Positions 37,157 to 60,369 of a stretch of DNA of 64,000 nt are shown here, piece by piece. Each line of letters starts with the position of its first letter. Position 1 is the first letter of the stretch. The notes under the pieces are model-generated. The model searched no databases. It was not told the origin of the DNA and worked only from the letters and a program-made list of their open reading frames with translations. The stretch lies in assembly GCA_963920705.1 (NCBI GenBank), contig OY987236.1, positions 11,642,190-11,706,189 on the forward strand. The letters run 5' to 3'. Source of the DNA: Odiellus spinosus. Its lineage: Eukaryota > Arthropoda > Arachnida > Opiliones > Phalangiidae. The translations under genes were made by a program, and so were the position numbers.

Positions 37157-37250
37157 GAGAATTTTTCAGACCTTTTCAGACCGTTCCAGAATTTTCCAGA
37201 CCGTAGTAGACTTTTCTGAAAACTTCTAGAACATTTTGTGAAAACTTCCG
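37157..37250. repeat. Family Q repeat with heat-shock-element register, copy 1
   Basis: TTC/GAA pentamers in one 5-bp register: TTCCAGAATTTTCCAGA at 37184-37200 and, in the same phase, TTCTGAAAACTTCTAGAA at 37214-37231. The right flank ACATTGTAAATTAATAG is shared with the 54.6-kb copy. Confidence 0.6.
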
Positions 37251-37487
37251 TTCTGACATTGTAAATTAATAGTTGACTGATTTTTTGGCAAACTTTTCTT
37301 CAGATTCACAGGATATAATTTCTACTATTAGCTACATCTACTATTACCACGTACCGGAAATTTCAAAACTCTAATATCAATTTAGCTTCACATTTAAATA
37401 TTTATTTCAAATTCAAAGTCTGAAGGTCTAAATATTTAACTTCATTTTATTTATAAATCTTGTATACTCGTATTCGCGAGGAGTTCG

Positions 37488-40994: not shown

Positions 40995-41475
40995 CGACCA
41001 TTGGACAGAATTCCATTGGACAGAATCCCATTGGGCAGAATCCCATTCGATCCACAATCCCATTCAACCGATACGTTTTCGTAAACCAGAATCCCATTCG
41101 ACCGAATCCCATTCGACCGTCAATCCCATTCGACCGAATCCCATTCGACCGTCAATCCCATTCGACCGACGTTCACAATCAGAAGTCCATTAACACATTC
41201 TAACCTAACCTAACCTAACCTAACCTAACCTAACCTAACCTAACCTAACCATTATCGGCTTAAATTCATCGGGACGCCCTTTTTGGTTTCGGCCCAATCG
41301 GAAATTCGGTCTATGGGGGATTCGGTTCAGCGGGATTCGGTTCAGCGGGATTTCGGTTCAATGGGAATTCGGTGCATTGGGCTCGGTCGGCCAAGATTCG
41401 GTTGATTGGGACTATTTATTTTTTATTTCGGACCAATGGGAATTCGGTCCAATAGGATTCTATTCAATGGGTATA
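40995..41475. repeat. Locus L1: (CCTAA)n core flanked by inverted short-repeat arms
   Basis: Left arm 40995-41185: degenerate repeats of CCCATTCGACCGAAT. Core 41201-41250: ten perfect TAACC units, the arthropod telomere repeat. Right arm 41262-41475: repeats of GGGATTCGGTTCA / GGGAATTCGGTCCAAT, the inverted complement of the left arm motif. The same plan, with the core in the other orientation, is at 46557-47230. Confidence 0.75.
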
Positions 41476-46556: not shown

Positions 46557-47230
46557 ATGTCCCCATTTCGCCCAAAATATTTCGCCCAAAATGATCTATT
46601 CCCATTTCGCCCAAGGCATTTTTTGCCCAAAATTATCTATTCCCATTTCGCCCAATCCTACTTTGCCCAATCGCTTTATCATTTGGCCCTAAATTATCTC
46701 TTCCCATTTTGCCCAAACTAAAAATTCCTTTTCTCAATTCGCCCAATCCCAATTTGCCCAATCGTTTTATCAGTTAGCCTAGAATTATCTATTCCCATTT
46801 CGCCCAACCCAAAAATTTCTCTTCCCTTTTCGCCTAAAACGATTAAAGCTTAAATCTTTTAAAATTTAAAGTCTTAGTAGGCCAAAAAAGTGACTTTTAT
46901 TTAATTTAGGTTAGGTTAGGTTAGGTTAGGTTAGGTTGGGGGGAAAAAAGTGGAAAAATGTGACTTGGGCAAAATCACAATTGGGCGAAACGAGATTGGG
47001 CGAGAAGACATTAGGCCAAATGGGAATTGGGCCAAATGGAAATTGGGCCAACGGGAATTGGGCGAAAAGAAATTGGGCGAAAAGAAATTGGGCCAAATGG
47101 GATTTGGGCGAAAAGAAATTGGGCGAAATGGGAATTGGGCGAAATGAAATTGTGCGAAAAGAAACTGGGCGAAATGGGAATTGGCGAAATGAAATTGGGC
47201 GAAAATAAATTGGGCGAAATGGGGGTAGAC
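46557..47230. repeat. Locus L2: (TTAGG)n core flanked by inverted short-repeat arms
   Basis: Left arm 46557-46850: degenerate CCCATTTCGCCCAA units, some with TTCGCCCAATCC. Core 46906-46935: six TTAGG units, then TTGGG. Right arm 46960-47225: GGGCGAAATGGGAATT / GGGCGAAAAGAAATT units, the inverted complement of the left arm. Long open frames across the right arm merely reflect the 15-18-bp units and are not genes. Confidence 0.8.
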
Positions 47231-53258: not shown

Positions 53259-54090
53259 TTTTCTTCCATTTCCCTGACTATTCCATGAATATTATTCACC
53301 AGTTTCCATAAATATAACCTCGCAAATTATATGCTAAGTGAAATTATTAATATTTGAGAGTGGCTTACTAATATTAGTCCGAAGAACACTTAAATTTCAG
53401 AGAGTGATTATAAAAGACAAAAAAAAAGGTTTTTCCATGCAGGCTCGAATTTATTTTTATCTAATTCGTTACGAAAGAGTGACCTCATATAGGTTAAAGC
53501 TATAAATTTAACGAGGTCAGGGGTCAATAAGGGTCAAATGACGATACTTCGTAGAGAGAGCATGCATGCCTTAAAACAGTAGCGTTAAAAAGGCGTATCA
53601 AAATGCAATTACGTAATTAAAGGAATATGTCCGACACATTTCTAATAAATCATAAAATAGCTATGAATTATCTATGACCAAACGAAGGTTCAATGCACGT
53701 AACTATTATTAAAGGGATAGTGACATGCTCTAGTTAATTTAGTCGAAAACACTTTCATTATGAAGGGAACGCTGAGATATATTAAAAATAAATAAATTAT
53801 AGGACCAGATCTGCCTTCACACGTTATTATAAAGGCATATGATATGGCAAATAAAAATTCATTTCGATGAGGTTATCATTTCCCGGGAATATTCAGAGCG
53901 AAGGAAAACTATCTCTCTTCTCTCCGCGCCCGCAGACACGAACCATCTGGAAGCAGGTCTGGATATTTTACTACGTTACAACTAAAGTTAATTGGCAAAA
54001 GGTAGGTGGAAATGTTTATTTAATAAATTGTTTTTGCGGCCATTAAGTGGCAGTCTCATTAATTTAATAACTAACACAAACCTGTGACAA
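53259..54090. other. Intergenic stretch
   Basis: Begins with a short family G fragment; otherwise AT-rich without recognised features. Confidence 0.4.
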
Positions 54091-54097
54091 ATCTAAG

Positions 54098-54592
54098 GAA
54101 TTTTCTAGAATTTTCCAGAATTTTCCCGATTTTTCGATATTTGTATAATTTTCCAGATTTTTACAGACCTTTCTAGAACTTTCAAGCACTTTCTAGATTT
54201 TTCTAGACCTCTCCAGACTTTTCTAAAATTTTCTAGACCTCTCCAAACTAATCTAAAATTTTCTAGACCTCTCCAGACTAATCTAAAATTTTCTAGACCT
54301 CTCCAGACTAATCTAAAATTTTCTAGACCTCTCCAGACTAATCTAAAATTTTCTAGACCTCTCCAGACTAATCTAAAATTTTCTAGACCTCTCCAGACTA
54401 ATCTAAAATTATCTAGACCTCTCCAGACTAATCTAAAATTTTCTAGACCTCTCCAGACTAATCTAAAATTTTCTAGACCTCTCCAGACTAATCTAAAATT
54501 TTCTAGACCTCTCCAGACTAATCTAAAATTTTCTAGACCTCTCCAGACTAATCTAAAATTTTCTAGACCTCTCCAGACTAATCTAAAAAAAA
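54098..54592. repeat. Family Q repeat, copy 2, expanded to a 30-bp minisatellite
   Basis: Starts with six perfect alternating GAA/TTC units in strict 5-bp steps (GAA at 54098, 54108, 54118; TTC at 54103, 54113, 54123). Degenerate units follow, then about 12 almost identical 30-bp units (54231-54590) built on TTTTCTAGACCTCTCCAGAC and TAATCTAAAA. 30 bp is six pentamers, so the expanded unit keeps the phase. The homogeneity suggests recent expansion. Confidence 0.85.
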
Positions 54593-54882
54593 GTTAAGGA
54601 CGTATACACGTTCGAATATTGTAAATTAATAGTGTTTGATGATAACATGGTCAACCAATTTTGTGTAAATGATTACCTAACTTCGCTTAAGATATTATCG
54701 ATAATTTAAAAATCGATATTTGGAATAAAATACCCCTTGTCTATCATTTGAAAGCATATCTACGCCTTAAAGGAGATAGCCTATAAAAATATTTCTTTAT
54801 CCAGGTTACTTTTCTATTATTGACTACCCAATTTCATACGGTAGCCCCAAGAACTAATTTAAAGAGCTAAGTTTTCTTCTGC

Positions 54883-59860: not shown

Positions 59861-60204
59861 TTAAAAAACTTCAATACCCCTTTAAAAACTAAAATAACTA
59901 GAAAGGGGACAGACTTTTCCTTTGAATCACGAAGCATGCCTTATATAAATGTAGATATAGCCACTTTAACAAGTAACTCTCTCATCTCGTAATCGAATAA
60001 ACTTTGGAGGGGAGGTCTAATAGCTATATAGGGTCATTTAATTCAAAGATGGTTCTAAAAAGGGAAGCAATATATACAAGGATTGCGTAATTTAACACGG
60101 GTGGGGGAAAGAAACGCGACAGTTATGGGTCTACTATTTAAAAAATTATAATAAATACGTTAGATTTATTTGAAGGGGCTTGTTTCTGAGCTTATTTCAA
60201 ATTT

Positions 60205-60312
60205 CCCAGACTTTTTCCGGAATTTCAAGACTTTTCTAGAATTTTCCAGAACTTCCAAGAATTTTCTAGATCTCTCCAGACTTTTCTGGAACCTTCTAGA
60301 ACATTCTGGTAA
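60205..60312. repeat. Family Q repeat with heat-shock-element register, copy 3
   Basis: TTC or GAA at 60234, 60239, 60244, 60249, 60259, 60264, 60284, 60289, 60294, 60299 and 60304, all in one 5-bp phase over 75 bp. Includes TTCTGGAACCTTCTAGAACA followed by TTC, five perfect units. Confidence 0.75.
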
Positions 60313-60369
60313 CGCACGTACGGACATTGTGGTTGATTGGTGGTTATATTCGAATTGTTTAAAACAAAA

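Follow-up and report, generated by a model that had tools for sequence, protein, structure and literature searches.

The window, by which we mean the whole 64-kb stretch of Odiellus spinosus DNA analysed here, contains near 54 kb a run of alternating GAA and TTC triplets beside a tandem array with a 30-bp unit, both of which lie in one short element (Table 1). The six triplets are all perfect and follow each other in 5-bp steps, with GAA at 54098, 54108 and 54118 and TTC at 54103, 54113 and 54123. They amount to about three copies of one 10-bp word and are not to be counted as six independent events.

Table 1. Positions of the repeat features and Helitron copies found in the window
Feature	Position	Strand	Details
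Six perfect alternating GAA/TTC triplets, HSE-type	54098..54125	.	5-bp steps; simulation and shuffles
In-phase HSE-like stretch, degenerate in part, lying between the six triplets and the 30-bp expansion	54146..54230	.	
30-bp tandem expansion, six pentamers per unit, mostly degenerate triplets	54170..54588	.	14.0 copies, 96% matches
Non-autonomous Helitron copy, 569 bp, holding all three features above	54071..54639	-	5' and 3' profiles; flanks A (5') and T (3') on its own strand
5' terminus of this copy, TCAAACACTATTAATTTACAATATTCG..., common to copies elsewhere in the genome	54590..54639	-	5' profile, match 54639-54593, E 5e-9
3' terminal region of this copy, eroded (TCACAGGTTTGTGTTAG vs family TCACGGGTTTTTGCTAG); inner part overlaps the six-triplet run	54071..54120	-	
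Second Helitron copy: HSE array (runs of four at 60234 and five at 60284) and inner 5' terminus	60200..60330	-	5' profile, match 60330-60312, E 1.6e-4, profile positions 18-36
Third Helitron copy, decayed: part of the 5' terminus and an HSE-like array	37159..37273	-	5' profile, match 37273-37255, E 5.9e-4, profile positions 7-25

The heat-shock-element array

Taking at least three contiguous inverted nGAAn units as a heat-shock element (HSE), we found six such units at 54098, five at 60284, four at 60234 and three at both 37184 and 54171. Counted as alternating runs, the window holds one of six, one of five, one of four and three of three. All three runs of at least four lie inside the 54-kb or the 60.2-kb array, and once the three arrays are masked, the longest run left in the window is one of three, occurring once. 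Windows simulated with Markov models of orders 1, 2, 3 and 5 (40 each) contained 0.025-0.075 runs of four per window and none longer. Among 1000 dinucleotide shuffles per array, none reached the longest run of the 54-kb array or that of the 60-kb array, and 7 reached that of the 37-kb array, a run of three. The exact 5-bp register that the initial annotation had pointed out is thereby confirmed, lying far above the simulated windows, and the shuffled arrays support it as well. By its sequence, the array is an HSE array.

The same annotation described the adjoining 30-bp unit as six pentamers, several of them degenerate, and we agree: in register, the pentamers carry TTC, GAC, CTC, GAC, ATC and AAA, which leaves one perfect triplet in six. 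The G of GAA (or the C of TTC) is retained in five of the six pentamers, and degenerate triplets that retain the G of GAA fit the tolerance of HSF. The 30-bp unit itself does not contain three contiguous inverted nGAAn units. It had further been claimed that the expansion kept the helical phase. This holds for the 5-bp register, which is retained, but not for the helix, since at 10.5 bp per turn 30 bp make about 2.9 turns and not a whole number. The array is open in one frame per strand (54105-54593 on the minus strand and 54109-54597 on the plus strand, 162 codons each), which is the simple outcome of a 30-bp unit without stops.

Helitron copies in the window

Pairwise alignment of the flanks alone gave weak results: on one side, random stretches equalled the scores in 14 (A-B), 364 (A-C) and 589 (B-C) of 3000 cases, and on the other side they scored as well in 264, 49 and 264 of 3000. 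For this reason we used a profile, built from the first 50 bases of the 5' end of 18 seeds. Its seed word was devised after an alignment that took in the window copies, while the profile itself contains no window sequence; in a few seeds (such as L133 and L166) the HSE part starts within the 50 bases used. The best three matches in the window each adjoin one of the three arrays and lie outside it (Table 1), and the fourth has an E value of 0.3. The arrays at 37.2 and 60.2 kb, previously annotated as related to the one at 54 kb, are by this flank its homologues.

The 60-kb and 37-kb copies are more decayed than the 54-kb copy. In the former, the outermost 5' end is lost or has diverged, and a 3' profile run on the window gave no significant 3' end for either of them. 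At the 54-kb copy, the 3' profile aligned to 54118-54078, with the envelope reaching 54071 (E 2.4e-3); we regard this as weaker evidence, since the alignment partly overlaps the HSE run. The 3' end of this copy reads CACAGGTTTGTGTTAG and is eroded, with 3 mismatches in 17. A search for the terminal 17-mer with at most three mismatches gave one match in the window, at 54070-54086, and 13 of 100 shuffles also gave one.

The window gave no Rfam match. A Pfam scan, whose positive control worked, covered 44-59 kb in the three plus frames and 47-62 kb in the three minus frames and detected no domain. The same frames showed no heat-shock gene beside the 54-kb copy. With neither a heat-shock gene nor a recognisable domain seen next to this copy in these frames, we do not claim a local regulatory role for it.

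The window also holds two short telomere-type arrays, (CTAAC)10 and (TTAGG)6, at 40998-41373 and 46562-47222. Both are flanked by minisatellites which are apparently reverse complements of each other (CCATTCGACCGAATC and GGGATTCGGTTCAGC; TTTCGCCCAAAAT and AATTGGGCGAAA), so that a similar layout occurs twice with different words.

Termini and insertion site of the family

The ends of the family read TCAAACACTATTAATTTAC and CACGGGTTTTTGCTAG. On the strand opposite to that of the flank strings TTACGGACGTACGCACGTACGGACATTGTAAATTAATAGTGTTTGA and CTAGCAAAAACCCGTGAAAAATCACGG given below, a flanking A is followed by TCAAACACTATTAATTTACAATGT ... CCCGTGATTTTTCACGGGTTTTTGCTAG and then by a flanking T. 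A canonical Helitron is defined in PMC13286980 by a 3' CTRR and a hairpin of 16-20 nt located 10-15 nt from the end. The family 3' end CCCGTGATTTTTCACGGGTTTTTGCTAG has both the CTRR and a hairpin, with a 6-bp stem and 10 nt to the end. This hairpin has a folding z of about -4.5 (two sequences); for a palindrome close to the 5' end, a z of 0.65 indicates no unusual stability.

The 5' TC of canonical Helitrons is found as well: 13 of 22 distinct 5' ends, the window copy included, start with TC and the other nine with GC, TT, AC, CC, TA, TG or GT, in a set whose seeds were chosen with a word starting with TC and up to six mismatches allowed. The 5' flanking base is A in 18 of 22, and GCTAG is followed by T in 55 of 61 cases (the 17-mer occurs 55 times with T and six times with any other last base). 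Three complete 3' ends encountered outside the 17-mer search are followed by T once and by A twice. These flanks point to insertion between A and T, the mode of a canonical Helitron, which makes no target duplication. We consider the Helitron identity of the family close to certain.

A MITE was considered and rejected, since the flanks are A and T and, by eye, the two ends do not form terminal inverted repeats. Helentrons and HINEs were rejected on the A and T flanks as against their TT preference. The DINE-1/HINE elements, which are non-autonomous Helentrons, resemble the family in their short length, their non-autonomous rolling-circle type and, in some cases, their internal tandem repeats, but they prefer TT and have T-rich boundaries and subterminal inverted repeats of at least 11 bp (PMC4067079). 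The O. spinosus family, by contrast, is bounded by TC...CTAG and flanked by A and T.

Distribution in the O. spinosus genome

The 17-mer CACGGGTTTTTGCTAGT, taken from the 3' terminus and free of HSEs, has 55 exact copies in 443 Mb, and its reversed control has none. An earlier set of ten loci, fetched by means of the 60-kb array's string or a close variant of it, is biased toward HSEs; the comparison of the two sides of the terminus was therefore made on copies chosen by the HSE-free 17-mer. Forty of the 55 were examined, namely the first 30 listed and ten of the other 25, hand-picked along later contigs with their sequence unseen. Within 700 bp, an in-phase run of at least three was present on the element side in 25 of 40 copies and on the other side in 2 of 40. 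For runs of at least four the counts were 16 vs 0, and for runs of at least five 6 vs 0. The later ten copies alone gave 7 vs 0, 4 vs 0 and 2 vs 0 for the three lengths.

At 24 distinct places the two ends could be matched up, giving lengths of 100-713. In the interiors of 24 elements, among them the window copy, a GAA-to-TTC distance of 5 bp occurs 96 times and each other distance from 3 to 14 at most nine times; from TTC to GAA, 5 bp occurs 99 times vs at most 11, all these counts being weighted by elements with long expansions. Close to the 5' end, a short HSE run of the form GAATGTTCTAGAAGGTTCC, with changes, is present again in L128, L138, L144, L146, L151, L171 and L173, copies that were not selected by this run and that differ in their expansions. 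Among the ten string-picked loci, one flank, best kept as ...TTACGGACGTACGCACGTACGGACATTGTAAATTAATAGTGTTTGA followed by T, is common to eight (not L105 and L106), and the other, CTAGCAAAAACCCGTGAAAAATCACGG..., is clearly retained in L106 and L112.

Fifteen of the 40 copies lack a run of at least three, and 11 of them form, as judged by eye, a sister subfamily with an unrelated interior (AAAGGTGCAATAGGTTGGGCTTCACCCTGAACACCGGAG...). Its members L125, L127, L129, L130, L131, L137, L140, L150, L170, L174 and L175 have the same ends and, before the 17-mer, a conserved interior without HSEs, and L126 resembles a shortened member. This subfamily shares the ends but lacks HSEs, so these are dispensable for mobility.

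Other carriers of the HSE pattern

The four-unit pattern occurs at 1674 places in the 443-Mb genome vs 69 for the reversed control, an excess that is partly due to high copy number. Together with the dominance of the 5-bp spacing from GAA to TTC, it bears out the genome-wide 5-bp periodicity that had been put forward as a check at the outset. The 50 places that were listed out of the 1674 are all on contig 1 and fall into 40 clusters, which we sorted by eye and by string, four members being placed by string alone. The Helitron family accounts for 12-14 clusters, a TATA-bearing high-identity repeat for 12, a GAAAATTCAAGAAACTTC-type family for 5, a terminal-inverted-repeat element for 2 and others for 7. 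The Helitron family is a large but not the only source of four-unit HSEs.

In L156, at about 1440-1660, inverted terminal repeats (GTTAACGAGCGAAGGACATTAGTGGTAA...) enclose an array of the TTCTAGAAAATTC type, which makes this another mobile element; a related element with one side kept is found in L123 at about 1300-1520. The high-identity dispersed repeat of L114-L122, L154 and L155 (and L167, by string only) has CTATATATACCC about 30-40 bp before GAAGCTTCTAGAACTTTC. This TATA-bearing repeat might be a heat-responsive retroelement promoter. In L114, fragments of integrase and RNase H are located about 0.9-1.6 kb away from it. The string GAAAATTCAAGAAACTTC, a four-unit HSE by pattern, is repeated in L159, L160, L168 and L169, with a near variant in L165, and in L159 it adjoins a tRNA-like sequence.

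HSF and the search for a transposase partner

A profile search of the genome found one HSF DNA-binding domain (E 2e-16, profile positions 23-100). It consists of a 37-residue and a 43-residue segment, and a short one-stop stretch between them was taken as an intron. The 13-residue helix of the DNA-binding domain is present, and we take the letters of the domain to be those of a normal HSF domain. For C. elegans, it has been described that the HSF-1 domain binds HSEs cooperatively, with up to five domains (PMC9148306).

The genome contains canonical Helitrons. For the Helitron Rep domain (PF14214) it gave 150 scored matches, some of which are fragments of one copy, and many of them sit in open frames of more than 1000 codons. 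Eight Rep loci of 3.5 kb each, a length too short for both ends, showed no match to either end profile of the family. The Rep loci L181 and L182 were extended by 2 kb more upstream and by a 2.2-kb piece downstream, and contain five hairpin-plus-CTRR candidates. One candidate per locus is nearly identical (GCCCGCCCGTAGGGCGGG...CAGCTAG followed by T) and lies about 3 kb beyond Rep. This putative terminus is the canonical Helitron end of another family, and its terminal sequence differs from that of the HSE family. The extension pieces of both loci contain no run of at least three; in L181, a single run of three stands about 0.8 kb ahead of Rep.

Three Rep matches, at G000:C107:1909802, 1920977 and 1932150, are spaced by 11,175 and 11,173 bp, as if whole Helitrons stood in tandem, and four others at C137:2851961-2901120 are 14.8-17.6 kb apart. 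The genome also holds an opsin-like gene and RASSF8.

Origin of the 30-bp expansion

Eleven secondary expansions (at least five copies and at least 82% matches) were found in the set. Their periods are 20 (L105, L135, L153), 21 (L109, L133), 30 (L110, L134 and the window) and 40 (L111, L141, L148); L105 is without demonstrated Helitron ends, and the array of L153 lies outside the element that brought this locus in. The amplified segment varies from copy to copy. Periods in multiples of ten are what slippage on a 10-bp template would give. We considered phase conservation as a sign of selection and rejected it, because such slippage explains it and two of the 11 expansions have the phase-breaking period 21.

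The window unit matches the family stretch TCTGGAGAGGTCTAGAAAAT, which is degenerate already in relatives such as L106 and L128. The 30-bp array most likely grew from these weak sites and not from the perfect run, so that the initial view of a minisatellite grown from the perfect run is probably wrong. The degenerate positions are unequal between the two halves of the 10-bp word, as neutral repeat decay would give, and this counts against the HSE model. Because decay differs in this way between the halves, we make no claim of selection from the retained G.

A further HSE-type 30-bp array, in L134, has about 50 copies with 82% matches over 1.5 kb and reaches the edge of the fetched stretch; the same locus also holds two Helitron 5' ends.

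Discussion

Overall, we think it probable that the finding is a dispersed non-autonomous Helitron whose interior is an HSE array that is bound by HSF under heat, with the 30-bp minisatellite as a later product of slippage. Under heat, HSF trimers would bind copies with at least three good pentamers, such as the six-triplet run at 54 kb and the 60-kb copy. Binding may open the chromatin and drive transcription in or beside the element. Copies opened or transcribed in this way could be better substrates for a Helitron transposase supplied elsewhere, from which the family would gain, while the host might gain scattered heat-responsive sites. The minisatellite would have arisen by later slippage in the window copy alone and would offer mainly weak sites. 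Use of the array by HSF appears likely where copies are intact, whereas in the 30-bp expansion it is doubtful.

The same Helitron could carry its HSE likeness without any function, if an ancestral near-palindromic 10-bp word, TTCTAGAANN, was spread by rolling-circle slippage and HSF binding is absent or without effect. Expansion periods of 20, 30 and 40 but also 21, as from a 10-bp template, a sister subfamily that is mobile without HSEs, a 30-bp unit that is mostly degenerate and the asymmetric decay of the half-sites would all agree with this. We nevertheless consider it rather unlikely, as the 10-bp word obeys the nGAAn trimer rule and the 5'-end run GAATGTTCTAGAAGGTTCC, with changes, is found again in copies picked by other criteria and having differing expansions. 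Moreover, other repeat types in this genome carry in-phase HSEs too, which is more than one accident explains.

That the array is a signal for the transposition machinery, recognised by Rep/helicase or serving as a replication slippage zone, and not a target of HSF, seems improbable to us: sister copies have the same ends without the array, and to our knowledge nothing but HSF reads alternating nGAAn at 5 bp. The array does fill the space between the ends in those HSE copies where both ends were found, and some of the related non-autonomous DINE-1/HINE elements have internal tandem repeats (PMC4067079). A plain intergenic minisatellite with coincidental Helitron ends, for which one could cite the diverged window arrays, the eroded 3' end at 54 kb (3 of 17 mismatched, a match that 13 of 100 shuffled windows also give) and the lack of a recognisable 3' end in the 60- and 37-kb copies, is contradicted by the 5' profile, the copy number, the flanking A and T and the difference between the element side and the other side of the end, and is hardly tenable.

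Among known systems, human satellite III is likewise a tandem repeat that is bound by HSF1 and transcribed under stress through HSF1. It is, however, a pericentromeric GGAAT-type satellite and not a transposon core, and it is without alternating 5-bp pentamers. The Helitrons of Caenorhabditis carry HSE clusters bound by HSF-1 (Garrigues et al. 2019, PMC6927752). The initial annotation had named them as a precedent, and they are more than an analogy, since the arrays described here sit inside Helitrons. Helitron1_CE, HelitronY1/Y1A/Y4_CE and Helitron2_CE are alike in having many overlapping, clustered HSEs within Helitrons (PMC6927752). HSF-1 binding and heat induction were shown there (PMC6927752), whereas the HSEs of O. 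spinosus are known from sequence. The two are set side by side by description and not by sequence, and the host here has a 443-Mb genome which, with its TTAGG-type arrays, opsin-like gene and RASSF8, fits an arthropod or another non-nematode animal.

In the available text of Garrigues et al. 2019, the enrichment is reported only for Caenorhabditis among the metazoa scanned, and the association is called not universal (PMC6927752). The literature matches listed, with most subscription journals outside their scope, contained no other case of Helitron-borne HSEs; a 2026 cnidarian preprint, in its available part, only cites the worm case. The wheat Xuan-Feng Helitrons are similar in their canonical TC...CTRR ends and their link to heat. 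The promoter of the full-length Feng8 is heat-responsive, but by a term count the main text of that paper mentions neither HSF nor HSE (PMC13286980).

The O. spinosus family looks like a second lineage of HSE-bearing Helitrons. It is possible, and we propose this only tentatively, that Helitrons recruited HSF at least twice, independently in Caenorhabditis and in this lineage, and that mobile DNA here converged on HSF as an activator. Such convergence would fit with the in-phase HSEs found in three kinds of repeat, namely the canonical Helitron, the L156/L123 element with its terminal inverted repeats and the TATA-bearing repeat of L114-L122. If true, four-unit HSEs numbering well above a thousand would have been spread over the genome by mobile DNA. 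With a second, apparently unrelated lineage, the repeated use of the heat-shock response by transposons becomes testable, and a natural control is available in the sister copies, whose ends are the same but which lack HSEs. Should HSF bind the copies, an animal genome would have received many heat-responsive sites from transposons.

The viral and prokaryotic collections searched yielded no relatives: two family-like patterns gave 0 and 1 stretches in IMG/VR, the one being L001, and a family-like pattern gave none in the GTDB genomes. The bare six-unit pattern occurs in 15 viral and 83 prokaryotic stretches, which may be chance.
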